Shown: in pieces, positions 8,452-25,324 of the stretch
Layout: each line of letters starts with the position of its first letter
Position numbering within the stretch: position 1 is the stretch's first letter
Assembly (NCBI RefSeq): GCF_015627125.1
Contig: NZ_VTDO01000004.1
Span: forward strand, 124,001 to 188,000
Origin: Acinetobacter rathckeae
Lineage (GTDB): Bacteria; Pseudomonadota; Gammaproteobacteria; Pseudomonadales; Moraxellaceae
DNA length: 64,000 bases
Direction of reading: 5' to 3'
Notes under the pieces: generated by a model
What the model saw: only the letters and a program-made list of their open reading frames with translations
Databases searched by the model: none
What the model was told of the DNA's origin: nothing
Translations under genes and position numbers: made by a program

Positions 8452-8471
8452 ATAGCTAACATGATCTGATG

Positions 8472-8605: not shown

Positions 8606-8645
8606 TATCGTAATTATACGATCTAAATATCGAATAATTACGATA
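8606..8645. promoter_or_regulatory. Two-site palindromic operator upstream of the ArsR-family gene
   Basis: Two ArsR-size imperfect palindromes, ATCGTAATTATACGAT (8607-8622) and ATCGAATAATTACGAT (8629-8644), lie 22 bp apart, about two helical turns. Together they form a near-symmetric 40-bp element whose outer 12 bp on each side are perfectly inverted (8606-8617 and 8634-8645). It ends 30 bases before the regulator's ATG, as expected for autorepression. That ArsR binds it is inference. Confidence 0.75.
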
Positions 8646-8674
8646 TATTGGTTTAACTCAAGGCAAGCTTCAAT

Positions 8675-8998: not shown

Positions 8999-9032
8999 GT
9001 GTAGTTAAACCCTAAATAAAGCAAAAGAGAAC

Positions 9033-10106
9033 ATGATGACAACACTCAATTCACCACTAAAAATGGGCGATCTTGAACTGAAAAACCGCTTGGTTTTAGC
9101 ACCACTGACTCGCTCTCGAAGCACAGATGAACGTATTCCCACTGAACTCATGGTGGAATATTATCGTCAACGTGCCAATGCGGGTTTAATTCTAACTGAA
9201 GCCACGGTCATTTCTGAAGATGCCGTTGGCTATAAAAATACCCCGGGGCTGTGGAATAAAGAGCAAGCCACCGCATGGAAGAAAATTACTCAGGCAGTAC
9301 ATGAGCAAGGGGCAAAAATTGTCACGCAATTATGGCATGTAGGCCGAATTTCTGACCCTGAGCTATTGGCAGGAAAAACACCTGTTGCACCCAGTGCTAT
9401 ACAGCCTGAGGGTCATGTGAGTTTGTTACGTCCAATGCGTCCATACGTTACACCAAGAGCATTAGCTATTGATGAAATTAAAACCATTATTGCGCAATAT
9501 AAAGAAGCGGCAATACATGCCAAAGAAGCTGGTTTTGATGGCGTAGAGCTACATGCAGCCAATGGCTATTTGGTTGACCAGTTTTTACAAAGTGGGACGA
9601 ATCAACGTACAGATATGTATGGGGGTACATTAGAAAACCGAGCAAGATTATTGCTTGAAATTGTAGATGTACTGATTGAAGTTTGGGGTGCAGGGCGTGT
9701 CGGTGTACACATTGCCCCTCGTGGTGATTCGCATGATATGCATGATGATAACCCTGCCCAAACGTTTGGTTATGTGATGCAACAGCTCAGCCAACGCCAC
9801 ATTGCCTTTGTATTTTCGAGAGAGTATGAGGCTGAAGACAGTATTGGTTCTGAATTACGTCAACAATTTAATGGTGCTTGGATTGCCAATGAAAAGCTAA
9901 CGGCAGCGTCGGCAAAAGCATTATTGGCAGAAAATAAAGCCGATGCGGTGGCATTTGGTCAGTTGTTTATTGCTAATCCAGATTTGTTGGAGCGTTTAGA
10001 GCATGACTTACCTTTAAACCCAGTCGATTACAATACGCTGTATCCATCAGATGGTACTGATCTAAATAAAGGGTATACCGACTACCCAGCCATTAGTCAT
10101 CATTAA
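9033..10106 (+). CDS. Old Yellow Enzyme family alkene reductase (NemA-like)
   Basis: An FMN- and NAD(P)H-dependent reductase of electrophilic alkenes such as N-ethylmaleimide or 2-cyclohexenone. The 357-residue TIM barrel shows the N-terminal LAPLTRSRS, QLWHVGR, the active-site HAANGYLVDQFL pair of His and Asn that hold the substrate, the RTDMYGG motif and the phosphate-binding VAFGQLFIANPDL near the end. It lies 34 bases after the ArsR-type gene, which probably controls it. A perfect 11-bp hairpin (10118-10145) follows. The ATG at 9033 is followed immediately by a second ATG; either could be used. Confidence 0.93.
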   Translation: MMTTLNSPLKMGDLELKNRLVLAPLTRSRSTDERIPTELMVEYYRQRANAGLILTEATVISEDAVGYKNTPGLWNKEQATAWKKITQAVHEQGAKIVTQLWHVGRISDPELLAGKTPVAPSAIQPEGHVSLLRPMRPYVTPRALAIDEIKTIIAQYKEAAIHAKEAGFDGVELHAANGYLVDQFLQSGTNQRTDMYGGTLENRARLLLEIVDVLIEVWGAGRVGVHIAPRGDSHDMHDDNPAQTFGYVMQQLSQRHIAFVFSREYEAEDSIGSELRQQFNGAWIANEKLTAASAKALLAENKADAVAFGQLFIANPDLLERLEHDLPLNPVDYNTLYPSDGTDLNKGYTDYPAISHH

Positions 10107-10117
10107 AAATTGATATG

Positions 10118-10145
10118 TGCAAACGTCTTGTTATAGACGTTTGCA
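10118..10145 (+). terminator. Hairpin after the OYE reductase gene
   Basis: TGCAAACGTCT (10118-10128) and AGACGTTTGCA (10135-10145) form a perfect 11-bp stem with a 6-base loop, 12 bases after the stop. There is no T-run, so it may be a weak terminator or an mRNA 3'-end stabiliser. Confidence 0.55.
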
Positions 10146-10263
10146 GTCTAAGCACTAAGAAAATTGTTATAAAAATATAAAGCTTTTTTAATTATATTAA
10201 AACTTATTGAGCATTCGCATCTAAGAATATGAGATCTATCATATTTGAAAGGAATAAGATTCT

Positions 10264-11118
10264 ATGAAAAATATAGGTGCTATTTTAGTGGTACTAGGGG
10301 CAATATCTTATGCCACTGTAGGGGTTATTCTGGCATTAGCTAAACAGAATGGGTTTTCTATACAACAAATAATTGTGCCAATGTATTTTTTTGCTTTTCT
10401 TACTTTATTTATCTTATTTGTTTTTAGTGAAAAAAATAACTTATTGTCAAAGTTCGAAAGCTTATCATTTCTATTAGCTGGATTTTTAACTGTTTCAACA
10501 ACGTACTGCTTTTACCAAGCTCTAACCTATGTCGGTGTACCGCTTGCTACATTGTTTTTAATGCAGTCATCATGGATGACCCCTCTTCTGTCACATTTTC
10601 TTAGAAAAAATATTCCTTGTAAAAATAGCTTAATCACTATGTTGGTTGTGACGATTGGTATTTTTATCTCTTGTTATACGCCAGATTTAAGTTTCTCATT
10701 TTATGGCTTAATTTGGGGCGTAGGTGCAGCGTTTAGCTATAGTCTCATGTTAACATTTTCAGCAAACGTTGCTAAGAACAAAAACATTTTTGAAAAATCA
10801 GCAATGACCAGTTTGGGTGCATTATTGGTATCTGTTGTGTTATTTTCAGATCATGCCACTATCAATATCATGAGTCCTAATGCATTTTGGGCATTAATTT
10901 ATGCCTGTTTTTCTACCGTGCTTCCTTTAATTTTTTTAACGATTGGTACGCAAAAGACACCTAGTCACTGGGTTGGGCTTTTAATTGTGTCAGAGATTCC
11001 AGCAGCTTATATATTGTCTTATTTGTTTTTGTCTGAAAAAATATATTTTAATCAGATATTTGGGTGTATTTTTATTATGTTTGCTATAATATATCCTAAG
11101 AAAAAGCCTCTTCTATAA
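10264..11118 (+). CDS. EamA/DMT-superfamily transporter
   Basis: A 284-residue integral membrane protein with about ten hydrophobic segments in two repeated halves, as in EamA (drug/metabolite) transporters. Typical features are the N-terminal GAISYATVGVI helix, YQALTYVGVPLATLFLMQSSWMTP at the end of the first half and IPAAYILSYLFLSEKI near the C-terminus. The substrate cannot be predicted. A good ribosome binding site (AAAGGA) precedes the ATG. The gene is clearly more AT-rich than waaA and the OYE gene on either side, which hints at separate acquisition. Confidence 0.85.
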   Translation: MKNIGAILVVLGAISYATVGVILALAKQNGFSIQQIIVPMYFFAFLTLFILFVFSEKNNLLSKFESLSFLLAGFLTVSTTYCFYQALTYVGVPLATLFLMQSSWMTPLLSHFLRKNIPCKNSLITMLVVTIGIFISCYTPDLSFSFYGLIWGVGAAFSYSLMLTFSANVAKNKNIFEKSAMTSLGALLVSVVLFSDHATINIMSPNAFWALIYACFSTVLPLIFLTIGTQKTPSHWVGLLIVSEIPAAYILSYLFLSEKIYFNQIFGCIFIMFAIIYPKKKPLL

Positions 11119-11161
11119 AAACAGCCCTTTATTTGGCAAGATTGTTTTATAATATGGGTAA

Positions 11162-12472
11162 ATGACCATTGTTATAGGACTTCTCTTGCGCCCTCCGTTT
11201 TGGTATCAGCTTGCTTTAAAAGTCATTCAGCCGTTATATCGCTCTCGTATACGCAAACGTGCAACAGATGAAAATGCACTACAACAAGAGTTGTTGCAAC
11301 GCTTTGGCCCATTTTCTTCGCCTAAACATACACATAGCTTATGGTTTCATGCGGTATCTGTGGGTGAAACCAATGCCGCACAACCGCTTATAGAGCACTA
11401 CTTGGCACAAGGGCAATCTGTACTGGTGACCAATACCACTAAAACAGGTCAAGCCAGAGCCAAAGCATTGTTTGAAAAAAAATATCCTGATCTATTTCAA
11501 GCGGTTTTTTTACCTGCCGACCTTCGTGAAAATATCTTACAGTTTTTAGCGTGTTATCAACCAAAATTGGTTTTGCTGATGGAAACGGAGTTGTGGCCAA
11601 ACTTATTATCTTGTTTGCATGAGCAGGGCATTGCAACGTTATTACTCAATGCCAGATTATCGGCAAAATCTGCTCAAGGTTATGCGCGTTTTAAGCGTTT
11701 GACTGTACCGATGCTCCAACAATTAAATTGGATCGCGGCTCAAGATCAAGCCACGCTAAAGCGTTTCGAAAGCTTAGGAAAAGACGCACAGTGTATGCAA
11801 GTTTTGGGTAATATTAAGTTTGATATACATGCACCTGAATGGGTCGCCGAAAAAGCACGCACCTTGTATACAGCATGGCAATTACAACAGCGTAAAGTGT
11901 TGGTGCTTGCTAGTACACATGCACCAGAAGAACAGCAACTTGTGCAGGCACTATGTGAACATTTTAAGCAAGACCAAAGCCTATTGTGTATTGTTGTACC
12001 TAGACATCCCGAGCGGTTTGATGCTGTTTTTTCAGAGATTACACAGCTGGGCCTTTCGGTTAAACGTCGTAGTTTACAGCAGGTTGTCGATGCCGATACG
12101 CAAGTCTATTTAGCAGACAGCATGGGTGAATTGTGGTTGTGGTATGCTTTGGCACAGGTGGCTTATGTAGGTGGTTCACTCAATGAACCTGGGGGCGGGC
12201 ATAATATTTTAGAGCCAATTGCTTTGGGTGTTGCTACGGTACTTGGAAAAAACTATTTTAATTTTCAGACCATTGTCGATGAGTTTGTTGAAAAAAAAGC
12301 GGTAGAGGTGGTCGATACACCGACTCAAGCAGCTGAGCGTTTTATAGATTTGTTGCAACAGCAAGCACAGGGTATAGAAATGATGGCACAGGCGGATGCG
12401 GTATTTAAGCAAAATCAGGGCTCATTACAACGTCATATTGCACTGATTGATCGATTCTTGGCACAGTCATGA
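11162..12472 (+). CDS. waaA: 3-deoxy-D-manno-octulosonic acid (Kdo) transferase
   Basis: Transfers Kdo from CMP-Kdo to lipid A at the inner membrane, an essential step in lipopolysaccharide core assembly. The 436-residue GT-B glycosyltransferase has a hydrophobic N-terminal anchor, the WFHAVSVGE segment with the catalytic Glu, METELWPN, RLSAKSAQGY, ASTHAPEE, VPRHPER and the C-terminal GGSL...GGGHNILEP nucleotide-sugar site. Its stop overlaps the start of rsmE (ATGA). Confidence 0.95.
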   Translation: MTIVIGLLLRPPFWYQLALKVIQPLYRSRIRKRATDENALQQELLQRFGPFSSPKHTHSLWFHAVSVGETNAAQPLIEHYLAQGQSVLVTNTTKTGQARAKALFEKKYPDLFQAVFLPADLRENILQFLACYQPKLVLLMETELWPNLLSCLHEQGIATLLLNARLSAKSAQGYARFKRLTVPMLQQLNWIAAQDQATLKRFESLGKDAQCMQVLGNIKFDIHAPEWVAEKARTLYTAWQLQQRKVLVLASTHAPEEQQLVQALCEHFKQDQSLLCIVVPRHPERFDAVFSEITQLGLSVKRRSLQQVVDADTQVYLADSMGELWLWYALAQVAYVGGSLNEPGGGHNILEPIALGVATVLGKNYFNFQTIVDEFVEKKAVEVVDTPTQAAERFIDLLQQQAQGIEMMAQADAVFKQNQGSLQRHIALIDRFLAQS

Positions 12473-13173
12473 ATATTGTCCTTTTACCTCAAGATACACC
12501 CATCGCTTCAACAATATCCATTACAGAACCTCGCCAAGTTCAGCATATTCAAACCCATTTAAAGCTGGGTGTTGGCGATACGCTTAAAGTAGGTATTCGA
12601 AATGAGCTGCGTTATTTAACGCAAATTACTGCTGTGTCTGCACAAACGATAGATGTACAGATTTTAAAACCTGAAACCATACCACGTAAACGTACAATCA
12701 CATTGGTGTTGGCATTGCCGAGACCCAAGGTATTACGCCGTATCATTATGGATGCGGTGACGCTTGGGGTAGAAAAAATAATTTTAATACACAGCTATCG
12801 TGTAGATAAAAGTTATTGGCAAAGCCCACTGCTTGCTCAAATAGATGATTATATTACCCTTGGTTTAGAACAGGCGGGGGACACTGTTGCTCCTCAGGTC
12901 GAACTGCATAAGCGCTTTAAACCCTTTGTGGAAGATGTTTTGTCTGGCATGGTTTGTCCTGAACAGCCTGTATATGTCGCACACCCTTATGCAACCACTA
13001 CACATGAACACATGGCTGAACCTTGTTGTTTGGTGATTGGGCCTGAAGGTGGATTTATTGATTATGAAGTTGAGTTGTTTAAAAAAAACGGCTGCCAAAC
13101 TGTGAGTTTAGGCAACCGAATTTTGCGTACTGAAACAGCAATCCCTTATGTTTTAGGTTCGCTTTCTATTTGA
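12469..13173 (+). CDS. rsmE: 16S rRNA (uracil-1498-N3)-methyltransferase RsmE
   Basis: Methylates U1498 of 16S rRNA with S-adenosylmethionine. The 234-residue SPOUT-class protein has an N-terminal PUA-like domain (~1-70) and a knotted C-terminal domain with LALPRPKVLRRIIMDAVTLGV, IGPEGGF and the C-terminal SLGNRILRTETA motif that forms the knot and cofactor site. It is translationally coupled to waaA. Its last 28 bases overlap the 3' end of the convergent mscS gene. Confidence 0.95.
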   Translation: MNIVLLPQDTPIASTISITEPRQVQHIQTHLKLGVGDTLKVGIRNELRYLTQITAVSAQTIDVQILKPETIPRKRTITLVLALPRPKVLRRIIMDAVTLGVEKIILIHSYRVDKSYWQSPLLAQIDDYITLGLEQAGDTVAPQVELHKRFKPFVEDVLSGMVCPEQPVYVAHPYATTTHEHMAEPCCLVIGPEGGFIDYEVELFKKNGCQTVSLGNRILRTETAIPYVLGSLSI

Positions 13174-14099
13174 ACCGGTGGTGCTTGTGTAATTTGCTCT
13201 TGAATAGGATATGGAATACTAATCCCTTCTTTAGCAAATGCTGTCACAATTTCTTCGTGTACCATGCTTGCGGCGTTGAGTAGTGTCACGTTACTGGTAT
13301 CAATCCACCAACGAATATTTAGGTTAATGGCAAAATCACCCAGTGCAGTCACGTTTACTAAACTTGCAGGTTGGTTCAAAATATCTTTGTGGTTTTTCAA
13401 AATATCGAGTACAACCGCTTTGGCTTTTTGTACGTCATCATCATAGCCAATGCCCACATTAATTTCACAACGGCGTTGTGTATAGGCAGTTACTACAGTA
13501 ATTGAGCTGGTATAAACAGTTGCATTGGGAATCACGATACGACGTCCGTCATAAGAGCGTAGTGTGGTTGCTCGAATTTGAATGTCCTCAACCGTTCCTT
13601 CAAGTCCATTACAAATAATGGCATCGCCAATACGAAATGGTTCGCCTAATAAAATTAAAATACCAGACAGTAAGTTCTGGAAAATATCTTTAAATGCAAA
13701 ACCAATTGCAACCGAACCAATCCCTAAAGCACTCATTAATTGACCGGGTGAAAAACCTGGAATGGCAATCACTAAGGCAATTAAGAAACCAAAAAATATA
13801 ATAAACGTACTACCTACACGGTTCAGTACCAATACAAGGTTTTGCTTGGCATATGATCGGTTAGATAAAGCTCGAACCACAAATAATTTAAAAAATTTGG
13901 ATAAGAACCAAAAAATAATGAATACAATTATGGCAATACAGAGATAGGGTACACGCTCCCAAAAGCTGGCCACAATTTTATCTATGGTTTGGTAGGCATC
14001 ATGGTACTTGCTATTTTCATTAAATATGGCGTGTGTTTGTGTACTGACATTGTTGGCTAAATTTGCCATTGAATTTGTTTTTTCTTCTGCCACAGTCAA
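13146..14099 (-). CDS. Small-conductance mechanosensitive channel, MscS family
   Basis: Opens under membrane tension to release solutes after hypo-osmotic shock. The 317-residue protein has three N-terminal membrane helices, the pore-lining TM3 region (SALGIGSVAIGFAFKDIFQNLLSG) and the beta domain signature LGEPFRIGDAI...GTVEDIQIRATTLRSYDGRRIVIPNA. The family signatures are intact. Its coding end overlaps rsmE by 28 bases tail to tail. A strong hairpin upstream (14205-14235) separates it from the permease gene, so it has its own promoter. Confidence 0.93.
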   Translation of the reverse strand: MTVAEEKTNSMANLANNVSTQTHAIFNENSKYHDAYQTIDKIVASFWERVPYLCIAIIVFIIFWFLSKFFKLFVVRALSNRSYAKQNLVLVLNRVGSTFIIFFGFLIALVIAIPGFSPGQLMSALGIGSVAIGFAFKDIFQNLLSGILILLGEPFRIGDAIICNGLEGTVEDIQIRATTLRSYDGRRIVIPNATVYTSSITVVTAYTQRRCEINVGIGYDDDVQKAKAVVLDILKNHKDILNQPASLVNVTALGDFAINLNIRWWIDTSNVTLLNAASMVHEEIVTAFAKEGISIPYPIQEQITQAPPVQIESEPKT

Positions 14100-14204
14100 A
14101 TTCCCAAAAAATGAAAGTAATATTGTGCCTTAAATTCTAAATAAACTTAAACGCTTAATTACATAAACGCTATGAAAATGATCATGATATGTGAAATGTA
14201 AATA

Positions 14205-14235
14205 TTCAAAAGGGCGACTGTTTCGCCCTTTTGAA
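14205..14235 (-). terminator. Terminator after the GabP-like permease gene
   Basis: TTCAAAAGGGCGA (14205-14217) and TCGCCCTTTTGAA (14223-14235) make a perfect 13-bp stem with a 5-base loop, 29 bases after the permease stop. On the minus strand it ends in TTTTGAATATTT, a moderate U-tract. Confidence 0.8.
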
Positions 14236-14263
14236 GATATCTATTTATTCAACTTAAACAGTT

Positions 14264-15664
14264 TTATTGGACTTCAGTATCTGCTTTTGTGGTGCTTTGC
14301 GTGCCCCAATTAAGCTTTTGTGCCAACATGCCAATACAAACAATAACCAACGCTAAAATGGTGGTGTAGGTGACTTCTTTAAAGTAAGTGCCTTCGATCA
14401 GCATGGTGACCAAAGAGCCAATAATGAAAATAATCACTAAATAGGTCAGCCATGGAAATAACCACATTTTGAACGTTAACTCTTGGCCTTGAGCTTGCAT
14501 TTTTTTACGCATGCGTAACTGTGAAAAAGCAATCGCTAAGTAGACATAAAGTGCTACTGTACCTGTGGTGAGCATTAGAAAGTCATATACGTCCATGCTT
14601 TGCGTTGCTGTTAAATATACCGCCACAACAGAAAATAGGCTTGAGAAAATTACTGCAAATTTAGGACTGCTGTGCTCATTGACCTTTGCAAATGCTTTTG
14701 GCGCATCGCCACGTTTTGACAATGAAAATAGCATACGTGAGCAGGTGTATAGTGCTGAGTTAAAACAGCTACATACAGAAGTAAGTACCACAAAATTTAC
14801 AATATGGCGTGCTTCGGGGACTCCTAGTGCGGAGAGTACCACGCTGTAAGTACCCCATGTTGGGTCTTTAAGAAGAGGGTTGTTATACGGAATAAGGCAG
14901 ACGGTAATAAGCATAGAACCGACATAAAACAAAATAATACGCCAAACAATTGAATTAGATGCACGGCGAATTTCAAATGATGGGTTTTTAGATTCAGCGG
15001 CTGCAACAGTAATAATCTCGGCCCCCATATAGGCAAACATGACCCCAAGTAAAGCAGTGACTACCGAAGAAAAACCATTTGGCATCAGTCCTTGGTCTGT
15101 TAAATGGCCAATGCCTTGTGCTGTTGGCTCGGTTGCCCAAGGCCAAAAATGCATCACAGCAAGGCTACCAATGATAAGAAATACTACAATTGCAACGACT
15201 TTAATTAAAGCAAACCAAAACTCAAACTCGCCATATTTTTTAACATTTTGTAAGTTCACAGCAACCAGTGCCACAATGACTAACAGCATATAGCCCCAAA
15301 TTGGAAGAAACGGGAACCAACTGTGCAAGATTTTTCCTGCCACATAGGCTTCCCAGCCCATGAGTAAAGTCCAAAATGACCAATATAACCAACCTATAGT
15401 AAAGCCTGCCCATCGCCCAATGGCACGGTCTGCATAGGTTGAAAATGAGCCACTGTCTGGGTGAAGTACAGCCATTTCCCCAAGCATACGCATAATTAAA
15501 AAGACCAATAAACCGCCCAATGCGTATGCAAAAACAGCTGCAGGTCCTGTGGCATAAATCACACTACCTGACCCAATAAATAAAGAACCACCAATCACAC
15601 CAGCAATAGAAATCATTGCTAAATGGCGGGACTTTAACCCGCTTTGTAAATCTTGTTTAGCCAT
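14264..15664 (-). CDS. APC-family amino acid permease (GabP/AnsP type)
   Basis: A 466-residue permease with twelve membrane segments that imports an amino acid by proton symport. It closely resembles GABA permease: GLKSRHLAMISIAGVIGGSLFIGSG at the N-terminus, MRMLGEMAVLHPDSGSFSTYADRAIGRWAG, NLQNVKKYGEFEFWFALIKV and the SALYTCSRMLFSLSKRGDAP segment. Substrate specificity within the GabP/AnsP/CycA group cannot be settled from sequence. It is monocistronic with a strong terminator. Upstream is a 343-base AT-rich region shared with the divergent CrbR-like gene. Confidence 0.88.
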   Translation of the reverse strand: MAKQDLQSGLKSRHLAMISIAGVIGGSLFIGSGSVIYATGPAAVFAYALGGLLVFLIMRMLGEMAVLHPDSGSFSTYADRAIGRWAGFTIGWLYWSFWTLLMGWEAYVAGKILHSWFPFLPIWGYMLLVIVALVAVNLQNVKKYGEFEFWFALIKVVAIVVFLIIGSLAVMHFWPWATEPTAQGIGHLTDQGLMPNGFSSVVTALLGVMFAYMGAEIITVAAAESKNPSFEIRRASNSIVWRIILFYVGSMLITVCLIPYNNPLLKDPTWGTYSVVLSALGVPEARHIVNFVVLTSVCSCFNSALYTCSRMLFSLSKRGDAPKAFAKVNEHSSPKFAVIFSSLFSVVAVYLTATQSMDVYDFLMLTTGTVALYVYLAIAFSQLRMRKKMQAQGQELTFKMWLFPWLTYLVIIFIIGSLVTMLIEGTYFKEVTYTTILALVIVCIGMLAQKLNWGTQSTTKADTEVQ

Positions 15665-16007
15665 TCATTTGGCCTCCATACCTGATTATTTATTATGAAT
15701 TACTGTATGAATATGACCGATTTGTGACCGATAAAAAGAGCCAATTTGCTAGTTTCTGACAAGACCATTTTAAAAGATGTATATCGTCGTTTAATTTAGC
15801 GCTGTAATGTATAAGTAAAATTTGGGATTAAAATGCGTGTTTTTTTAAGTTTTATTGAACTAAGTCATTGTTTTAGCCCTTTAAACTAAAAAAAATTAAA
15901 AAAATAAATACAGCATAAGAAAAAAATGTAATATTCAATACATTAAGTAAACTTTTGATCAGAAAATGACATGACTGATCGTTTTGAATAGGTATGGCCA
16001 AGCGCTT
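15665..16007. other. Divergent promoter region between the permease and the CrbR-like regulator
   Basis: A very AT-rich stretch holding the upstream regions of two divergent genes. I find no convincing operator, RNA gene or conserved frame. A TTG at 15984, in frame with the regulator, was rejected as start because the ATG at 16008 begins the conserved receiver-domain sequence. Confidence 0.45.
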
Positions 16008-16658
16008 ATGAATATATTAATCGTTGATGATCACCCATTATTTCGCCATGCGCTCATTCAGGCAGTGCGACAGGGCTTTCCATTGGCGGACATTAAAGAA
16101 ACGGCTACAGTGAAAGAGTTTTATGCCCACTTAGAAAGTGGTACAGAACCAGATTTAGTTTTACTTGATCTGAATTTACCGGGTGCTTCAGGCTTTTCTG
16201 CATTGGTTCATGTTCGTGCCCAGTATCCGAGTATTCCAATTGTTGTGGTATCTGCACATGAAGAAGTCAGTATTATTCAACGTGCGATGGAACATGGTGC
16301 AATGGGCTATATTCCAAAATCTGCCAATCCACATTTAATTAGTGAAGCAATACAAGCTGTTTCGGATGGTGATTTGTGGTTGCCACCAAACTTGCCACAT
16401 CATAATCATGTCGAAGTCTGTACTGCTGATGAAACAGCACTGGCAGCCCGTATTCAATCACTGACACCACAGCAATTTAGAGTGTTGATGATGGTGGCAG
16501 AAGGCTTGTTAAATAAACAGATTGCTTATGACTTAGATGTGTCAGAAGCAACCATTAAAGCCCATGTGACAGCGATTTTTAGAAAACTGAATGTTCAAAA
16601 CCGCACGCAAGCAGTGTTAGCGATTAGTGTATTGAACATTCAAGAGAAAAAAATGTAG
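16008..16658 (+). CDS. LuxR-family response regulator (CrbR/ErdR-like)
   Basis: A 216-residue response regulator. The receiver domain (~1-120) has the acidic pair in VDDH, the phospho-acceptor Asp in LVLLDLNLPG (~54), the Ser of VVSAHEE and the Lys of IPKSANP. The LuxR-type DNA-binding domain (~150-210) contains LTPQQFRVLMMVAEGLLNKQIAYDL and SEATIKAHVTAIFRKL. It converges on an SSS-type hybrid kinase 7 bases away, the gene pairing and architecture known for CrbS/CrbR and MxtR/ErdR, which activate acetyl-CoA synthetase (acs) when acetate is used. The exact pathway is inferred from that architecture. Confidence 0.82.
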   Translation: MNILIVDDHPLFRHALIQAVRQGFPLADIKETATVKEFYAHLESGTEPDLVLLDLNLPGASGFSALVHVRAQYPSIPIVVVSAHEEVSIIQRAMEHGAMGYIPKSANPHLISEAIQAVSDGDLWLPPNLPHHNHVEVCTADETALAARIQSLTPQQFRVLMMVAEGLLNKQIAYDLDVSEATIKAHVTAIFRKLNVQNRTQAVLAISVLNIQEKKM

Positions 16659-16665
16659 AGCCGTT

Positions 16666-19600
16666 TTAGTCAAGTTTTAAGCCAGATAACCAAGCACGCA
16701 TAGATGCGGGCTTGAGTGGTTTTTTCAGCAAAGTGATTTGCTGCTGTTTCAGTTTTTGTGGCAAGTCAGGGTCTGAGTCGGCGGTAATGAGTGCAACGGG
16801 GACATCGGCTTGGCGATTTTTTTCAATAAAATCTAAGCCACGTTTATTTTGGTTTAAGTGTTGGTCAATCAACCACACTTGAATGTCATGTTGTTGAATC
16901 AGTTGTTCTGCTTCTTCAGGCTCTCTGGCTTTATACACCGTGTGCCCCCATTTTGTCAGTAGGGTGAGCATGCCTTCTAAAATGGCTTCGTCGTTATCTA
17001 AACATAAAATACGATAACAAGCGTTAGGTGCCACACTGCGTGCCATGGGTTGCGTATTGGCTTTAGGCGGTTCTATCAGTGGCACTTCAACCATAAAACA
17101 TGAACCACGTGCTAGTGTAGAGTACACATAAACTGGGTAGTCAAGCATACGCGTCATACGTTGTACAATTGCAAGCCCTAAGCCTAAGCCCTGTTCACCC
17201 CATGGTGAGGTGTGACCACAGCGTTCAAACTCTTGAAACAGTTTCATACGTTGTGCTTCGGCAATACCGGGGCCTGTGTCCCATACCCCAATTCGAATAT
17301 GATTGGCTTTAGAGGCGGAACGTAACACCCCAACAATGACTTTACCACTTGCGGTATAACGTAATGCATTACTCACAAAATTTTGAATAATACGGCGAAT
17401 CCATTGCTGGTCTGTATCAATCCAAAACTGTGCATCACGTACTTTAAACTGAATATTTCGCTGTGCTGCAATGGACTTAAACTGCATTTCTAAGTCACTG
17501 AGTAAGTCATGTAATGGATAGGCTTGGCGTTGTGGTTGAATACTTGCCCCTTCTAAGCGGGCAATATCTAGCAGTGCCGACAACATACTTTCAGCACCAT
17601 GCAATGCTCGGTCAAGTTGTTGTAAGGTATGCTGATCTTCTGTGGTGTGAATACTTTGTTCAAGTGCGGTACTAAATAAACGTGCCGCATGCATCGGTTG
17701 TAATAAGTCGTGACTGGCTGCTGCAATAAATCGGCTTTTCGATAAATTGGCTGTATCGGCTTGTTGTCGTGCAAGTTTTTGCTCTGCTAAAGCATTGGCT
17801 AACTGTTGGGTGCGTTCTTGTACACGAGCCTCAAGTACAGCTTCATTTTCACGAAAGGCCGTAATGTCGGCAAAGGTGGCGACAAAACCACCACCTTCAA
17901 TGGCATTGCCTCGAATCTGAATGACTCGGCCATCTTTTCTGACCCGTTCAAATTCATGGGCACTGCCAACTTGCATCCAATGAATACGTTTTCTGACATG
18001 TTCTTCGACCGAACCCGGCCCACAATCACCACGAATGGCATTGTAACGAATCAGGTCGGCAATTGGGCAACCGACATAAATCAGCTCTTTTGGATAATCA
18101 AAGAGTTTAATATATTGGTTGTTCCATGCCACAAGGCACATATTTTCATCGACCACGCTGACCCCTTGTGTCATGTGGTTAATCATGGTCATAAGCAAGT
18201 TTTGGTGAAAGCGTTGCCACTGTGATGCTTGGTCTAAAATATTCGCCACTTGTGCCACGCCAAGTCCATTATGTGCAAGGGCTGTTTTTAACAGTGTACG
18301 TGCCGATGCTGCACCAATACTACTGGCAAGGTATTGTTCGGTAAAATTCCACCACATGCCGTTGGCCACTTGGTTGGTATTTAACACCAGTGCATTGTGT
18401 TTACAAAATTGTTGGAAAGCCCGTTTGGTATTATCTTCCCCGGTAATTCGACTGGCGAGGGTAAGTAAGTCACCAATTTTGAGTCGTGCACCATCTTGGT
18501 GGGTATAGAAAGAGTCGCTCGGTTGTGTAGAAGCCTGTAGTTTTTGGTCATAATAAAAAAAACTTTCTGCTTGAATTTGTTCAGCAACACTTGGGCGGTA
18601 GTGCCGAGAAACCCAAATATAAAACACAATATTTAAGCCCAAAGACCACATCACGCCGTGGGTGAGGGGAGATAAATATTCAAAGCCAAGCAATGCTTCA
18701 GGGCGTAGTAAATAAATACCAAAAAGGCCATCATTGAGTAATGCCGAGTGGTCACTAGGGGTATTTAAAAAAACATATTTAATGAGTGTAGGTATAAATA
18801 AAGTGTAGGTCCAGAGTAAAAAGCCAATGCCTAACCCTGCATACACGCCTTGTTTACTACCGCCACGCCAATACAAACCACCAATGAGTGCAGGTGCAAA
18901 TTGTGCCACAGCACTAAAGGCCAATAGGCCTAAAACAGACAGCTGGGTTACGTTGTCAAAAACATGATAAAAAGAAAAACCCAGCAACATCACAAAAATA
19001 ATGCACAGACGGCGAGCAATTTTAAGTACGGCAGGTAGTTTTTTATGGTGCCGTGAAATAATACCAAACCGCCACAGGGCAGGCATAATAAGGTCATTGC
19101 TTAACATGGTAGAAATAGCCACAGAAGAGACCAAAAGCATACCTGTAGATGCAGAAAATCCACCTAAAAATGCCAGTAAAGACAGCCATTCATTTTGGTA
19201 GCTGAGTGGCAAAGTCAAGACTGCTAAGTCGCCAATACCAATGTGCTCATATTGGTGGTGTAAGGCCCAACTTGCGATGGGGAAAATGGCAATTGCAGTG
19301 ACGATGAGGTATGCCGAAAACCATTTTCTTGCCCCTTTAATATGCGTTTCATCACGTAGTTCGACCACTCCCACATGAAACTGGCGAGGTAAACAAAACA
19401 TGGCAAGCGCGGCTAGAATGGTTTGTACCCAAAAAGTGCTTGGTAGGCCTGTATTTTGAATATGTGTATATTGTTGTTTTAAATCAAGGCTAATTTGAAG
19501 CAGGCTTTGAGGGTCTTGCAGAATAAAAAATAGAGCAACACACAGTAATGCCACCAATTTCACAAAAGATTCAACCGCAACGGCAAGCATGAGTCCACCA

Positions 19601-20148
19601 TGCTGTTCAGTATTGGAAATTTGCCGTGTGCCAAATAACATCGACAGCATCACTAAAATCGCCGTCAAAAAAAGCACAATATTGGTGGTGTTTTGAATGG
19701 TATGGGTTTCAGGCAAAATGGTGGCGGTACTCATGGCAATGGCACGCAGTTGTAATGCCAAATAAGGCACTGTACCAATGACAGAAAGTATTGTAATAAG
19801 CGATGCTAAAGTGGCACTTTTGCCGTAACGTGCTGAAATAAAGTCAGAAATAGAAGCAATGGCATGATATTGTCGAATATGGCCTAAACGTCGCCAAATA
19901 TCGTAACCAAAGGCAATAAAGAGTAAAGGCCCTAAATAGATTGCAAAATAGTTAATACCTTCTACGACAGCATCACCTGTTGCACCATAGAATGTCCAAG
20001 AGGAACAATACACACCTAAAGTCAGACTAAATAATAAGACACGACCTTTTGAGTTTAAATGTGATGCATATTTTTCACCAAAAAATGCACATAGAAATAA
20101 AAAAACAATATAGAGAATGAGGATTGCAATAATGAGCCAGCTATTCAT
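16666..20148 (-). CDS. Hybrid sensor histidine kinase with a sodium:solute symporter domain (CrbS/MxtR-like)
   Basis: About 1160 residues: an N-terminal SSS/PutP-like transporter domain of about 13 membrane segments (~1-520), a PAS domain (~640-750, GVSVVDENMCLVAWN), a coiled coil, a HisKA domain with SHDLLQPMHAARL, a HATPase with NFVSNALRYT, DTGPGIAE and GLGLGLAIV, and a C-terminal receiver with its Asp in VWLIDQHL (~1100). All kinase and receiver residues are present. The closest architectures are CrbS and MxtR, which sense acetate or related metabolites. The ATG at 20148 is preferred to the GTG two codons earlier. It faces its probable partner regulator end to end. Confidence 0.88.
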   Translation of the reverse strand: MNSWLIIAILILYIVFLFLCAFFGEKYASHLNSKGRVLLFSLTLGVYCSSWTFYGATGDAVVEGINYFAIYLGPLLFIAFGYDIWRRLGHIRQYHAIASISDFISARYGKSATLASLITILSVIGTVPYLALQLRAIAMSTATILPETHTIQNTTNIVLFLTAILVMLSMLFGTRQISNTEQHGGLMLAVAVESFVKLVALLCVALFFILQDPQSLLQISLDLKQQYTHIQNTGLPSTFWVQTILAALAMFCLPRQFHVGVVELRDETHIKGARKWFSAYLIVTAIAIFPIASWALHHQYEHIGIGDLAVLTLPLSYQNEWLSLLAFLGGFSASTGMLLVSSVAISTMLSNDLIMPALWRFGIISRHHKKLPAVLKIARRLCIIFVMLLGFSFYHVFDNVTQLSVLGLLAFSAVAQFAPALIGGLYWRGGSKQGVYAGLGIGFLLWTYTLFIPTLIKYVFLNTPSDHSALLNDGLFGIYLLRPEALLGFEYLSPLTHGVMWSLGLNIVFYIWVSRHYRPSVAEQIQAESFFYYDQKLQASTQPSDSFYTHQDGARLKIGDLLTLASRITGEDNTKRAFQQFCKHNALVLNTNQVANGMWWNFTEQYLASSIGAASARTLLKTALAHNGLGVAQVANILDQASQWQRFHQNLLMTMINHMTQGVSVVDENMCLVAWNNQYIKLFDYPKELIYVGCPIADLIRYNAIRGDCGPGSVEEHVRKRIHWMQVGSAHEFERVRKDGRVIQIRGNAIEGGGFVATFADITAFRENEAVLEARVQERTQQLANALAEQKLARQQADTANLSKSRFIAAASHDLLQPMHAARLFSTALEQSIHTTEDQHTLQQLDRALHGAESMLSALLDIARLEGASIQPQRQAYPLHDLLSDLEMQFKSIAAQRNIQFKVRDAQFWIDTDQQWIRRIIQNFVSNALRYTASGKVIVGVLRSASKANHIRIGVWDTGPGIAEAQRMKLFQEFERCGHTSPWGEQGLGLGLAIVQRMTRMLDYPVYVYSTLARGSCFMVEVPLIEPPKANTQPMARSVAPNACYRILCLDNDEAILEGMLTLLTKWGHTVYKAREPEEAEQLIQQHDIQVWLIDQHLNQNKRGLDFIEKNRQADVPVALITADSDPDLPQKLKQQQITLLKKPLKPASMRAWLSGLKLD

Positions 20149-20234
20149 GTGCACGATGTGTAGAAGGGAGTCAATCTATGATAACTGAAATATACTGTTT
20201 TACTGATTTTTATATCAGTTTGAGGTGGTAAAAC

Positions 20235-20271
20235 CACGCGAAAAAAAATCTAACTTTTATTTTTTCGCGTG
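20235..20271 (-). terminator. Terminator after the omptin gene
   Basis: CACGCGAAAAAA (20235-20246) pairs with TTTTTTCGCGTG (20260-20271), a perfect 12-bp stem starting 9 bases after the omptin stop. It closes the surface-lipoprotein locus before the hybrid-kinase gene. Confidence 0.8.
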
Positions 20272-20279
20272 AAGAGGGC

Positions 20280-21356
20280 TTAAAAAATGTATTGTGCACC
20301 AAGGCCTAAATTATAGTAGCGAGAGGATATACCACCTTTACCTTCGTAATCTGAATGCTTAATGGTGACGGTTCCACCTGCAAGTTTGTAATCACTCCAT
20401 GTGATTTCGGTAAAGAGCTTAATACGAGGTGAAATGTAGTAACCAGCATTGAGTGTCACTGCATAGAATTCGGAATCTTCAGCTTTTTCATAAATGGTCA
20501 GGTCACGCATATAGTGTTCATCTTGAGATTTAGATTTCACCCATGGACTCATTTTTGCAGTGGCGTTAATTTCATAGTTGTTATATCTGTAATTTGCTGT
20601 TAAACCTAAATAGTACAAACTAAATTTTTGTTTATAACCAACGCCCATCGCTTTGTCTGGAAAATGGCCTTGATACATCAGTGCAGTATCTTGCATGTAG
20701 TTTCCATATTGGTCAGATAAACCATACTGGTAACTTCCACCACGAGCAGTCCAACTAAATTGGCTGTGTTCATAGCCAAAAAGTAGGCCAACATTATAAC
20801 TTGGTTTTTGTAGCAACCAATAGGTGAAATTGAGATCTATTTTATTTGCTGAGTTGAGCGAAGTATCTGGGTGGTTTGACCAATCTGTGAGTAGTGAACG
20901 GTTATTCATATCACGCCAGTCATAATCATTCATGGTCAGCGTTTTTTTGCCGACTGTTGTCCAACCGTTCATGTTAAAACTTAAATTGGGTGAAATGTTC
21001 CATGTGAAGTCGGTTTTGATAATAGGTACATTTTTAATCTCCCAAGTTAAAAGGCTGATTTGATCTGAGTAACTGTTGGTAAATAAATACTCTTTGCCTT
21101 GACCACCTGTGAGCATAGATGGGGTGATGCTTAACGTGACAGTAGGTTTTTGCGTAATAATTTCAATCTCTTCATAAGAGGCTGTCTTGGGCTGTCGCTC
21201 AATGGTGACTTCAGCCTCTTTTGCAATTTCAATTTCTTGTAAGTCTTCATTTTGTTCAGCTGACATAGATGGAGTGATTTGTTCTGCAACAGCAGAACTA
21301 ATATTACACAGCCCCAAAATCATAAAATAATTTAATGCTTTGATTTTAAAATACAT
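20280..21356 (-). CDS. Omptin-family outer-membrane protease
   Basis: A 358-residue protein with a signal peptide (cleavage near AVAEQ, ~24/25) and a ten-strand barrel matching OmpT/Pla along its length: GWTTVGKKTLTMNDYDW, HPDTSLNSAN, SWTARGGSY, VGYKQKF, DEHY, NAGYYISP. The catalytic Asp pair (D144, D146) and the Asp-His pair (D279, H281) are present, so proteolysis is expected at the cell surface. Unlike OmpT there are about 50 extra acidic residues between the signal peptide and the barrel. At the LPS-binding positions, OmpT Glu136, Arg138 and Arg175 align with His197, Gln199 and Lys244. It lies downstream of a lipoprotein and a Slam gene on the same strand, 157 bases after the Slam. Confidence 0.88.
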   Translation of the reverse strand: MYFKIKALNYFMILGLCNISSAVAEQITPSMSAEQNEDLQEIEIAKEAEVTIERQPKTASYEEIEIITQKPTVTLSITPSMLTGGQGKEYLFTNSYSDQISLLTWEIKNVPIIKTDFTWNISPNLSFNMNGWTTVGKKTLTMNDYDWRDMNNRSLLTDWSNHPDTSLNSANKIDLNFTYWLLQKPSYNVGLLFGYEHSQFSWTARGGSYQYGLSDQYGNYMQDTALMYQGHFPDKAMGVGYKQKFSLYYLGLTANYRYNNYEINATAKMSPWVKSKSQDEHYMRDLTIYEKAEDSEFYAVTLNAGYYISPRIKLFTEITWSDYKLAGGTVTIKHSDYEGKGGISSRYYNLGLGAQYIF

Positions 21357-21513
21357 TGTATTTTTTACTCAAATTATAAATGAATAAATTTTAACAAAAA
21401 ATAAACAGTTTGGATATATTTTATAACACGATCGTGCTGAGCATCTTTAGGTAATAATGCAAGAGCAACCCCAAAAAAACACTATATTTTTGATTGGGGG
21501 AAACTTTTGATGG

Positions 21514-22917
21514 TTAAAATGAACGTTCTACAGTCATAAACCATGAGCTATTGTGGCGATCATAGAGTGGTAAGTTGCTTTGTGTTTTTTGATATTTATA
21601 GTTGAGTTTAGGTATAAAGCCTTTCCATTGCCATTGTTGACGCCAAGTGGTGGTTGTCAAAGCATATTCATGGTCTTTTCGAATGGTATTATACCAAGTA
21701 TTGTTGGCAAGAAATTGTCGTTGTGAGTAATTTAGATTTGTTCTCAAACTGGTGAGTTGTCCTGAATATAAAAAACCGAGACGAAGCCCTTGACGTACCG
21801 ATGACTCACTACGATCTGCTAAGTGATCTTGTATGAAGCTCACGCCACTGTATAGTAAAAAGTTGGGTTTTGGCTGGTACATGATAACCACAGCTTGACT
21901 GTTGCTGTACCCATCATAGTATTTAGCGGTACTCGATTGATGGTAATTTTTTTCAATATATGAAGTATTTGCTGAAACCTTCCAACGTGTGGACAACTGT
22001 TGGCTATATTCTAAGTTTGTACCATAGTTCTGACTATAGCGATTATTTCCTAGAATATTCTGTTGAAGAAATGGCGTGAAAGCCCAAGAATGGTTTAAGT
22101 TTTTATATGAATAGCCTGTGCTGGCACGGACAGTTTGTTCACTATAGTCTTTGTTATCCCAGTAGTAAATGCCATCTAGAGATACGCCCATATTGACATA
22201 ATGATGTCCCACTATATTTTTTTCACGAGATATTCCCATACTATAGTTCATCCCTTGTGCTTTTTTAGGTAGTGACTCAGTACTACGGATAAAATTTTTA
22301 CCATTGATGGTTATTTCTTTTAAGCTTGAGGCTTGATTTACATTATTTGTTTTTTCATAGCTTGCATTTACGTCAAGTTGCCATTGTTGTGACTTTTTCA
22401 TTTTTACGAGAATTTGCTCAACAAGTATTTGCATGGGTGGTGCAAGAAATGTTTTGACAGATTCAAATATAGGGGTTGCTTCAGCATAGCGTTGATCTTC
22501 AAACAGCATCATGGCTAAATCAAAACGTGGATAGTGTAGGTCTGGATTGTTTTCAGCAATATGTTGATAAAGCCGAATTGCATCATTTAATTTTCCCTGG
22601 TGTCGATACAATGCACCTAAGCCATAGTCATACAGTATTTGATCATAGACTTTACTGTGTTGATATTCTTGTAATAAGTGCTCTAAAGTTTCCCAATCTT
22701 TTTGAATAATGGCTTGGTTAATACTTCTTTCTAAGCTCAAATTTTGTATGTTCGCAATTTTAACTGTATTGTCTTGTGCAGGTATAAAAGAGACTTTTGG
22801 ATAAATAGATGTTTTTTGTTCAAAAAATATGCTTTGATCGGGTGGGAGTTCCTGAGCAAATGTAGAGGACGAAAAAAATGCCCCAAGTATTGTGTAGTAT
22901 TTAATATTCACTGACAT
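21514..22917 (-). CDS. Slam-type surface lipoprotein assembly modifier (TPR plus DUF560 barrel)
   Basis: A 467-residue outer-membrane protein that delivers specific lipoproteins to the cell surface. It has a signal peptide (~1-21), an N-terminal tetratricopeptide region (~45-165, with YDYGLGALYRHQGKLNDAIRLYQ and YPRFDLAMMLFEDQRYAEA) and a C-terminal 14-strand-type barrel (~175-467) ending in Phe. This two-domain layout is diagnostic of Slam. The gene directly upstream encodes a lipoprotein with a TbpB-like C-terminal barrel, the typical Slam client. No clear Shine-Dalgarno precedes the ATG at 22917, and a strong hairpin separates it from the client gene, so it is probably made at lower levels than the client. 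Confidence 0.87.
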   Translation of the reverse strand: MSVNIKYYTILGAFFSSSTFAQELPPDQSIFFEQKTSIYPKVSFIPAQDNTVKIANIQNLSLERSINQAIIQKDWETLEHLLQEYQHSKVYDQILYDYGLGALYRHQGKLNDAIRLYQHIAENNPDLHYPRFDLAMMLFEDQRYAEATPIFESVKTFLAPPMQILVEQILVKMKKSQQWQLDVNASYEKTNNVNQASSLKEITINGKNFIRSTESLPKKAQGMNYSMGISREKNIVGHHYVNMGVSLDGIYYWDNKDYSEQTVRASTGYSYKNLNHSWAFTPFLQQNILGNNRYSQNYGTNLEYSQQLSTRWKVSANTSYIEKNYHQSSTAKYYDGYSNSQAVVIMYQPKPNFLLYSGVSFIQDHLADRSESSVRQGLRLGFLYSGQLTSLRTNLNYSQRQFLANNTWYNTIRKDHEYALTTTTWRQQWQWKGFIPKLNYKYQKTQSNLPLYDRHNSSWFMTVERSF

Positions 22918-22932
22918 GCAACCAATAAAGTG

Positions 22933-22969
22933 AAAAAACCGTCTGGAGGAAAAATTCAGACGGTTTTTT
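22933..22969 (-). terminator. Strong hairpin between the lipoprotein and Slam genes
   Basis: AAAAAACCGTCTG (22933-22945) and CAGACGGTTTTTT (22957-22969) form a perfect 13-bp stem with an 11-base loop and T-runs on both sides, within the 83-base gap. It looks like an intrinsic terminator or attenuator, allowing only some read-through into the Slam gene. Confidence 0.82.
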
Positions 22970-23000
22970 GAAAATTTAACAGAAGGGTATAATCATAGCG

Positions 23001-24470
23001 TTATTTGACATCGCCACGTGTACCACCAAAACCAATAGAGTCATTGTTGGTGAATACAATTTTACCTGCAACTTCTTCAGCATGTTTACCATAGAAACCG
23101 AGCGAATAATTCCCTGTGAGATCTGCTTGTTTTACAGTTGAACTAATATCTGTGCCAGAAATGGCACCTTTTTCAAGGGTAATGGCATTTCCTAAGCCTG
23201 TAATTGAACCTGAACCTGTACGCTCTGTAAAGTTTACGTTATAGCTTAGAGTTCCTTCATTGACGTTACTGGTCCAAGCTCCGCCTATGTTCTCTGGAAT
23301 ATCTTGAAAGGCTTTCCCGTTATAAGTAGCAGTACCTAATGTTGGTAAGGCATTAGAGTCGGTTTTTATGCCCAAAATAGAAATCTCTCCAGTTCTACCA
23401 ATACTAACTTTTCTATTCATATCATAATTCATATCGCCTGTATAATTACCTAAAACAACCGAATAGTTTTGTTGGTAAGCTGCTGACTCGAATGCTATAG
23501 CATCTATTAGATCGCTAACTGTATCTAAATTTGAATTAGCTTTTTTTGCATTTTCTTTGTCTTCGGCAGTGGCATCTTTTGCTTTTGCTTTTTCATCTGC
23601 TTGAGTAGCAATTTTTTCCGCAATTAGATATTTATCTGCCAAATCTTTATAGGCTATAGATTTTTCATATAATTTTTTATAAGCATCTGCTTTGTCACGG
23701 GCAAATTTATATGTATCTGGCGATGCATCTTTATCAGTCTTACTGATTTCATCTAGTGCATTTATATAATTAGTTTGTGAAAAAACAACTTCATAATTTA
23801 TCTCTGCTAGTCCCATTTTTTCAGCAGCAGCATCAGCAATAGCATCAGCTGCAGTAGTATCAGCACTAGCAGCACGTGCTGCTTGACCATTATTTTCTGC
23901 AATTTCCCATGCTTTGCGTGTCGCAATTTTTTCAGCTAAAGCTTGTTCAACGGTTATTTTATTTTCAGTCCCTATTTTATCTGCAACCGCTTTTTTCTCA
24001 GCAATGGCTTTATCTTCGGCGGCTTTTTTCTCAGCGATGGCTTTGTCTTCAGCAACTTTTTTCTCGGCGATGGCTTTATCTTCAGCAGCTTTTTTCTCGG
24101 CGATGGCCTTATCTTCAGCAGCTTTTTTCTCGGCGATGGCCTTATCTTCAGCAGCTTTTTTCTCGGCGATGGCCTTATCTTCAGCAGCTTTTTTCTCGGC
24201 GATGGCCTTATCTTCAGCGGCTTTTTTCTCAGCGATGGCCTTATCTTCGGTAGCTTTTTTCTCAGCGATGGCTTTATCTTCGGTGGCTTTTTTCTCAGCA
24301 GCGACTTTGTCAGCAGTAGCTTTATCTTCGGCGGCTTTTTTGTCAGCATCGCTTTGTTGCGGTGAAGTTGTTACATTTTGAGTGGTATGATTACCACCAC
24401 TACTACATGCTGTGACTGTCAGGGAAATAATGATTGCTGAGACTATTTTCGGTGTATTTATTAGGGGCAT
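23001..24470 (-). CDS. Predicted Slam-dependent surface lipoprotein with EDKAIAEKKAA repeat stalk and TbpB-like barrel
   Basis: A 489-residue lipoprotein with a signal peptide ending VTAC (lipidated Cys22, then SSGG). Residues ~40-180 are an Ala/Lys/Glu-rich, coiled-coil-like stalk with nine near-identical 11-residue repeats. Residues ~180-330 remain helical and charged. The last ~150 residues resemble the TbpB C-terminal handle barrel: LPTLGTATYNGKAF, GTLSYNVNFTERTGSGSITG, FYGKHAEEVAGKIVF and the final GFGGTRGD. That barrel is the part recognised by Slam proteins, and a Slam gene follows. The ligand is unknown; there is no second TbpB lobe, so a transferrin-type function is unlikely. Confidence 0.83.
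   Translation of the reverse strand: MPLINTPKIVSAIIISLTVTACSSGGNHTTQNVTTSPQQSDADKKAAEDKATADKVAAEKKATEDKAIAEKKATEDKAIAEKKAAEDKAIAEKKAAEDKAIAEKKAAEDKAIAEKKAAEDKAIAEKKAAEDKAIAEKKVAEDKAIAEKKAAEDKAIAEKKAVADKIGTENKITVEQALAEKIATRKAWEIAENNGQAARAASADTTAADAIADAAAEKMGLAEINYEVVFSQTNYINALDEISKTDKDASPDTYKFARDKADAYKKLYEKSIAYKDLADKYLIAEKIATQADEKAKAKDATAEDKENAKKANSNLDTVSDLIDAIAFESAAYQQNYSVVLGNYTGDMNYDMNRKVSIGRTGEISILGIKTDSNALPTLGTATYNGKAFQDIPENIGGAWTSNVNEGTLSYNVNFTERTGSGSITGLGNAITLEKGAISGTDISSTVKQADLTGNYSLGFYGKHAEEVAGKIVFTNNDSIGFGGTRGDVK
23989..24285 (-). repeat. Nine tandem 33-bp repeats in the lipoprotein stalk
   Basis: Nine copies of a 33-bp unit coding for EDKAIAEKKAA with only a few third-position and Ala/Thr/Val changes; degenerate units flank the array on both sides. 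Because 33 is a multiple of three, gain or loss of copies would change stalk length without breaking the frame. Confidence 0.92.
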
Positions 24471-24973
24471 CTTGTAATACCTTGGTTGATTTTAGGAGTT
24501 TTGCTTAAAGTGAAGCAAGAGAGTAATCTGATTTAAATGTATGAAAATTTATCAATAACCTTCTAGATAAACGCCAGACAATTTATTAGATTGTTTATAT
24601 AATGTTAAATTATAAACTATTTTTGTTTGAATTTGTTTATCAATTATCATTTTTTAATATTATATTAAGCTGCTTTATATGTGTGTTCAGGATGATATTG
24701 GGGGAGGTTGAGCCTTCTTTATAAGTTGTTTTTATGAATATGAGGCATAAGGTACAGTGACTTACTATAAGTATAATTTCCTTATGCCAGTATTTAACTT
24801 TATTCTTTCACCATATAAAAATAATGAATTTTACAGTTACCAGCGAAGATCATCATTTTGACAAGCAGTTTATTGATCTTCATAACGGTTAAAGTCCTGT
24901 TTCTAATCAAACAATACAAAGCTTATTTTTTCCATTAGATGAGCTGAACACACCTTAGTTTTTGGAGGTGGAT
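24471..24973. other. AT-rich intergenic region upstream of the lipoprotein gene
   Basis: About 500 bases that hold the lipoprotein promoter on the minus strand. There is a perfect 9-bp inverted repeat GGCATAAGG/CCTTATGCC (24744-24752 and 24780-24788). A possible decayed 44-codon frame lies at 24824-24958, starting MNFTVTSED and interrupted by an in-frame TAA at 24890. A stretch reading AATGATAATTGATAAA on the minus strand near 24637-24652 is only a weak match to a Fur box. No confident gene is seen. Confidence 0.45.
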
Positions 24974-25324
24974 TTATAACCCCTGGAAAATACGATCACA
25001 GCTTTGGCGATCTGATTTTGCTTCTTGTTGCTGTTGTGGTGATAGACTTAAATAATAATGAATCATTTCATGAGCAAAGTTGTCATAAATTTTAGGTTTA
25101 TTGAGTGCGTAGTCGGGTACGCCACCTTGTGCAACCTTATTAAAAAAGGAAATCAACGCTTTATCATCGGCTTGTATTTCTCGGTGTTCAATCACATAAC
25201 ACATGGCAATACGGTGGTAGGCTTTTTCTTCTTCTGATGGGTAAGTGTTGGTCACATAGATTAAACCCGCGATCAGTAAAAACACAGCGATAACCGCTGT
25301 GCTAAGGTATTGTTTTTTAGACAT
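24974..25324 (-). CDS. Small membrane-anchored protein of unknown function, third gene of the phoBR operon
   Basis: A 116-residue protein with one N-terminal membrane segment (~8-26) and a presumed periplasmic domain with two Cys (~42 and ~109) that could form a disulfide. I recognise no family. It starts 20 bases after the phoR stop on the same strand, so it is probably co-transcribed with phoBR; any role in phosphate sensing is only a guess from position. The ATG at 25324 starts the membrane segment. Confidence 0.72.
   Translation of the reverse strand: MSKKQYLSTAVIAVFLLIAGLIYVTNTYPSEEEKAYHRIAMCYVIEHREIQADDKALISFFNKVAQGGVPDYALNKPKIYDNFAHEMIHYYLSLSPQQQQEAKSDRQSCDRIFQGL

Follow-up and report, generated by a model that had tools for sequence, protein, structure and literature searches.

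Where a lipoprotein gene, the gene of a Slam that would export its product and an omptin protease gene follow one another on one strand, the question arises as to whether all three belong to a single surface system, or whether a client and its translocator simply happen to lie beside a protease gene that has nothing to do with them. The locus considered here lies within a stretch of 64,000 nucleotides of Acinetobacter rathckeae DNA (referred to throughout, at its full length, as the window), and an earlier note on it had favoured the first possibility, proposing an undescribed surface system in which the omptin might process or release the client, or cut host proteins bound to it. The view reached here is that the locus is very probably an ordinary client–Slam (T11SS) pair of the helical-repeat type adjoining an independent omptin; judged from the sequences compared, a joint three-gene system is unsupported.

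The locus and its surroundings

The three genes proved to be minus-strand open reading frames exactly as the earlier note had placed them (Table 1), and domain matches bear out the identities it had given them, namely a repeat-stalk lipoprotein (here SLP), a Slam and an omptin. The sequences further show a lipobox in SLP, a Slam of full length and all four catalytic residues in the omptin. The window is close to two named relatives, A. boissieri ANC 4422 and A. baretiae B10A, both of which are given as nectar-dwelling genomes in the available text of PMC11774029; the words omptin, protease, lipoprotein and Slam are absent from the main text of that paper. In both the window and A. boissieri the gene order is phoB, phoR, a gene for a 116-residue protein, SLP, Slam, omptin and a sensor kinase gene (phoB and phoR having been named by eye). 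The genome from which the window comes is flagged as 8.49% contaminated; the SLP–Slam–omptin locus is nonetheless syntenic with that of A. boissieri.

Table 1 Features of the SLP–Slam–omptin locus, in window coordinates.
Feature	Position	Strand	Basis or remarks
SLP, 489 aa	23001–24470	minus	ORF; signal peptide, repeat stalk, helical region, C-terminal barrel
Stalk-coding DNA repeats	23977–24357	minus	33-bp unit, about 10 copies, and related 48-bp array
C-terminal barrel of SLP (FHBP_C / TbpB_B_D)	23001–23352	minus	from about residue 374
Terminator-like hairpin between SLP and Slam	22933–22969	minus	z −7.2 in window, −5.9 in A. boissieri
Slam / T11SS outer-membrane translocator, 467 aa	21514–22917	minus	ORF; TPR domain and SlipAM barrel
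Conserved 70 bases upstream of omptin start	21357–21426	minus	conserved in A. boissieri and A. baretiae
Omptin protease, 358 aa	20280–21356	minus	ORF; PF01278
Acidic N-terminal extension of omptin, about 45 residues	21144–21284	minus
Hairpin 3′ of omptin	20234–20272	minus	z −3.9

The lipoprotein and its Slam

A reading of its sequence gives SLP the lipobox VTAC, with Cys22 as the lipidation residue. The stalk array comprises 9.8 copies of the 33-bp unit at 93% match (tandem-repeat analysis), each encoding an 11-residue repeat of the type AEKKAAEDKAI, while the C-terminal region matches FHBP_C (PF08794; 7.4e-19) and TbpB_B_D (1.9e-8), both above cut-off. The NCBIfam model for Slam-dependent lipoproteins, NF041636, scores 88.4 bits on SLP against a cut-off of 80. 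For the barrel, 13 sequences were used to model the C-terminal 179 residues (mean pLDDT 82), and the best 50 of the 729 Foldseek matches to this model comprise fHbp or fHbp chimeras, NHBA, HpuA, HphA, TbpB and the LbpB N-lobe, together with one further entry titled only “surface lipoprotein”. When the solved structures among these 50 are ranked, fHbp and the C-terminal domain of NHBA come first, followed by HpuA, HphA, TbpB and LbpB, so that the description of the barrel as TbpB-like in the earlier note holds for the fold, although the nearer comparison is with fHbp and NHBA of Neisseria meningitidis. Even these share only 22–29% identity with SLP in their rows among the best 50; their ligands are factor H and heparin, and a stalk like that of SLP is not described for them in the available text of PMC7857515. 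SLP thus has the lipobox, the predicted fHbp/NHBA-type barrel and the adjoining Slam gene by which a Slam-dependent surface lipoprotein is recognised.

The model of full-length SLP (mean pLDDT 59) was used for its helices only: it has a long helix at residues 42–169 (block pLDDT 54–87), more helices up to residue 332, and strands thereafter. At the α-helical rise of 0.15 nm per residue, helix 42–169 would be about 19 nm long if straight. These predictions, together with the tandem 33-bp repeats, place a long α-helical repeat ahead of the barrel, which is the arrangement of the Pls-like Slam cargo described by Grossman et al. in 2025 (PMC12282271, here and below as far as its available text goes), comprising 173 lipoproteins and 20 soluble proteins and marked by EEARKA repeats with homology to Pls of staphylococci. 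In the Haemophilus parahaemolyticus example, Pls/TepS, the cargo is displayed only with its Slam, and protein is found in the supernatant too. SLP has in common with this cargo the charged α-helical repeat, the C-terminal barrel and the associated Slam-family protein; it differs in that its repeat reads as AEKKAAEDKAI-like rather than as EEARKA, its host is an Acinetobacter, and an omptin lies next to the pair. With helical-repeat Slam clients in print since 2025, “undescribed” can no longer be said of this kind of client.

The Slam itself matches PF04575 over model positions 1–288 of 288 (7.9e-61, 206.5 bits) and TPR_Slam (PF24575; 2.5e-23, 82.9 bits), both above cut-off, and so has the N-terminal TPR region and C-terminal SlipAM/DUF560 barrel of the Slam/T11SS architecture. 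That it serves SLP, as the earlier note had supposed, is made likely by comparison of genomes, because related SLPs adjoin the same Slam type in other Moraxellaceae; in G057 and in genus g15 (at a guess, Psychrobacter), SLP relatives directly adjoin the next nearest Slams. Across the Moraxellaceae, 64 of 348 genomes have a match to the SLP barrel family. Five g15 genomes (G240, G269, G278, G289 and G319) contain open frames of 2078 to 2666 residues, each with several barrel-domain matches, which appear from their sequences to be very large multi-barrel relatives of SLP.

The same barrel fold bears on a different reading of the pair, namely that SLP and Slam form an iron or heme receptor which, like TbpB or HpuA, would work with a TonB receptor. 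The fold is indeed common to TbpB, HpuA and HphA (among the best 50 of 729 Foldseek matches), and according to the available text of Hooda et al. (2017; PMC5449769) a lipoprotein gene lies beside 185 of 353 Slam genes, with a TonB receptor gene in 120 of those 185 lipoprotein-containing clusters. However, judging by ORF size, the sensor kinase gene is the only ORF in the 8–33 kb region of the window large enough to encode a TonB receptor. The neighbourhoods of the relatives carry several large ORFs and are uninformative on this point. A nutrient receptor is accordingly considered improbable. A Fur-like stretch upstream of SLP, seen by eye, appears not to be conserved in A. boissieri and was set aside.

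In the reading preferred here, SLP would be secreted through Sec, receive its lipid on Cys22 and then travel to the outer membrane, where the neighbouring Slam would recognise its C-terminal barrel and move it to the outside; the long Ala/Lys/Glu helix would then keep the barrel off the surface, and the barrel is probably an adhesin for a host, pollen or matrix ligand.

The omptin

The protease matches PF01278 (3e-79, 266.5 bits), and its residues D144, D146, D279 and H281 align with the catalytic D83, D85, D210 and H212 of OmpT (residue numbers and roles from the available text of PMC11410778). It shares with OmpT-type enzymes not only the barrel family and the catalytic Asp-Asp and Asp-His pairs but also the equivalents of S1 Glu27 (Glu89) and S1′ Asp97 (Asp158). 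At the position of the S1-pocket Asp208, in contrast, it has Ser277, so that the full trio Glu27, Asp208 and Asp97 associated with dibasic specificity is not present. A. boissieri likewise has Ser here; the eight remaining intact omptins of the genus all have Asp, and the interrupted omptin of G049 (a gene broken by an in-frame TAA; L047 9112–10260) has Thr. Membership of the omptin family thus seems clear on sequence grounds, whereas OmpT-like specificity is unproven. It also differs from OmpT at four of the five proposed LPS-motif positions (E136 to His197, R138 to Gln199, R175 to Lys244 and K226 to Glu293), although OmpT mutants of this motif remained active according to the available text of PMC7356225. 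A further difference is the N-terminal extension of roughly 45 residues, which is seen in the omptins of the window, A. boissieri, A. baretiae, G129, G102 and G049 and is missing from those of G093, G007, G153, G158 and G171. Some stretches of this extension resemble TonB boxes.

In a tree of the ten intact omptins (that of G049 being left out), the window and A. boissieri group together, joined next by A. baretiae and then by G129/G102, the forks concerned being well supported. We infer that G129, G102 and G049 are nectar-clade species, for the first two partly from this tree.

Gene order and co-occurrence across genomes

Searching for the same three-gene order, as the earlier note had suggested, gave a divided result: the order is present in A. 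boissieri, and is missing from several other lineages, with co-occurrence in the genus close to chance. Among the genomes examined, SLP, Slam and omptin stand in this order solely in the window and A. boissieri; strictly speaking, then, co-conservation in relatives is not wholly lacking, because A. boissieri keeps the order. Between these two species the three proteins are roughly 80% identical, and with dN/dS values of 0.20 (SLP), 0.13 (Slam) and 0.08 (omptin) all three look to be under purifying selection, so that the adjacency has lasted some time. The dS of SLP is 0.45, well under the 1.15 of Slam and 1.30 of omptin, and the ends of the SLP gene are 91–97% identical to A. boissieri L010 (window 22857–24506); this may mean that SLP alleles have passed from one species to another, or that the gene is constrained.

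A further comparison is with A. baretiae, where phoR, the 116-residue gene, omptin and the kinase gene follow one another with nothing of Slam or SLP between them, and neither Slam nor SLP has a match in the draft genome (taken to be G148). Because A. baretiae has the omptin at this very place without the SLP–Slam pair, the adjacency in the window most likely arose by accident, through gain or loss of genes in one lineage. In G020, G102, G129 and G049, phoR and a relative of the 116-residue gene are followed by a different gene, while G012 has a weak relative of the 116-residue gene in other surroundings. In G020, G102 and G129 the phoR/116-residue genes lead straight into a gene matching the one that starts the interval 8023–24974 of the window, with two short ORFs intervening in G049, and from this arrangement the block of the window from about 8.5 to 25 kb looks to have been rearranged into place. 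The omptins of G102 and G129 lie elsewhere, near genes resembling (by eye) smc, zipA and ligA, and those of G093, G007, G049, G153, G158 and G171 in still other surroundings.

Counts across the genus point the same way. Omptin occurs in 11 of 175 genomes (including the window's own) and Slam in 48, a tally made with the window Slam as query and taking in G001, a weak match with stop codons; family-wide the same query matches 97 of 348 genomes, and a Pfam profile search finds Slam in 41 of 149 genus genomes. The two occur together in four of the 175 (G000, G098, which is taken to be A. boissieri, G093 and G171), against 11 × 48 / 175 = 3.0 expected by chance, and in G093 and G171 they are far apart. 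Apart from the window's own genome and A. boissieri, the genus has nine genomes with an omptin, and in none of them does a Slam adjoin it; nor was an omptin found in the 11 genomes whose Slams come nearest once A. boissieri is set aside (one of these, G219, being 63% complete). A wider omptin–Slam linkage was considered and rejected: omptin has a match in five of 369 sampled genomes of the class (again including the window's own; that of G379 is below the family cut-off), and two of the four others have a Slam match, on a separate contig in G379 and about 40 kb away in G471. In the open-access literature searched, no report of an omptin linked to Slam or T11SS was found, nor was one among the papers listed for omptins and Acinetobacter.

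The intergenic regions

A hairpin with a T tract between SLP and Slam is common to the window and A. boissieri, the stem being the same and the loop altered; it was detected by folding, and is unlisted by the terminator scan because its loop of 11 exceeds the 8 that the scan allows. It may mean a higher output of SLP than of Slam. This terminator contains CCGTCTGAA (22955–22963, minus strand), which resembles the core of the Neisseria DNA uptake sequence; A. boissieri has TTCAGACGG at that place. No claim is made for CCGTCTGAA, which matches once in the window against 0.15 expected, because at least one match was also present in 14 of 100 shuffles.

Between Slam and omptin there is a hairpin that is weak in the window (z −1.7), so that read-through from Slam into omptin is possible; in A. 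boissieri a hairpin of different sequence reaches z −4.1. The 70 bases before the omptin start are identical at 60 of 70 positions in A. boissieri and at 57 of 70 in A. baretiae, which lacks Slam and SLP, whereas agreement is lower in the stretch before these (49 of 80 aligned positions in A. boissieri, 44 of 74 in A. baretiae). As far as can be read from sequence, the hairpins between the genes and the conserved upstream region of the omptin would argue against one transcription unit, and a three-gene operon is disfavoured both by this region and by the synteny of A. baretiae.

The undescribed three-gene surface system proposed in the earlier note is therefore not upheld: its order recurs in one other genome only, with near-chance co-occurrence in the genus, the omptin is found without the pair in A. 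baretiae and the pair elsewhere without the omptin, and the omptin keeps its own upstream region. Under the preferred reading it is a separate gene with that region as its own, whose product probably cuts peptides at the cell surface.

Might the omptin act on the lipoprotein?

The remaining case for a joint system is that the omptin cleaves the stalk at its basic pairs, thereby shedding the barrel, as NalP releases NHBA and LbpB in Neisseria (PMC5472700, available text); the Haemophilus Pls seen in the supernatant (PMC12282271, likewise) would be a second precedent. NalP with its substrates resembles the window in that barrel lipoproteins share the cell with a protease at its surface, and is a model for how a client might be shed; NalP is, however, an autotransporter rather than an omptin. 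A search of the open-access literature found nothing joining omptin, dibasic sites, cleavage and lipoprotein.

Beyond the adjacency in two genomes, a point in favour is the stalk itself, which has 14 dibasic sites in 309 residues in the window and 11 in 296 in A. boissieri. Ten relatives, none with an omptin match in its genome, have 0 to 7 such sites (0 to 2.5 per 100 residues), some of their stalks being clipped by contig ends or broken frames (e.g. G269 and G287) and the count of 7, for G280, becoming 8 under cruder stalk bounds. These numbers lie near expectation for the composition of the stalk, however: when each stalk is compared with shuffled sequences of its own composition, those of the window and A. 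boissieri show no enrichment (P 0.11 and 0.18), while those of G269, G288 and G057 are depleted.

The nature of the sites also matters. Omptins generally disfavour an acidic residue next to the basic pair, and every pair within the repeats of both proteins reads [D/E]KK, with an acidic residue directly before it. Three pairs per protein lie outside the repeats (at residues 185, 265 and 309 in the window) and have no such residue before them; repeat and non-repeat sites alike fall within predicted helices, whereas the natural substrates listed in the available text of a review (PMC3724046) are described as cut in accessible loops. Furthermore, the S1 Asp tied to basic specificity is replaced in just the omptins of the window and A. 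boissieri, omptins occur without SLP in A. baretiae and others, and the two linked genomes amount to one phylogenetic event. Taken together, these points make shedding of the barrel by the omptin distinctly unlikely.

Less likely still, to the point of being very improbable, is a role for the omptin in trimming or degrading host proteins that SLP has bound. Both proteins are predicted to be at the surface and their genes adjoin, but the ligand of SLP is hypothetical and co-conservation is seen in one lineage only.

There is one further pattern to be weighed, namely that a dibasic-rich stalk and an omptin with Ser at the S1 Asp position are combined only in the two linked genomes. It would fit co-adaptation of the omptin and the lysine-pair-rich stalk, either as a switch for barrel release or with loss of the S1 Asp sparing the client, an idea with little probability behind it. 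Because the window and A. boissieri form one lineage, the coincidence is a single observation and no correlation, and on these sequences it is at most a weak lead.

Implications

The pair of SLP and Slam, as read here, extends the range of bacteria with helical-stalk Slam clients to a nectar-type Acinetobacter, and the locus as a whole illustrates that a suggestive gene neighbourhood can be an adjacency confined to a single lineage. If the omptin did process the client, this would be a new release route for Slam-displayed proteins, and if co-adaptation of the two were true, it would parallel NalP and NHBA with an omptin as the protease.
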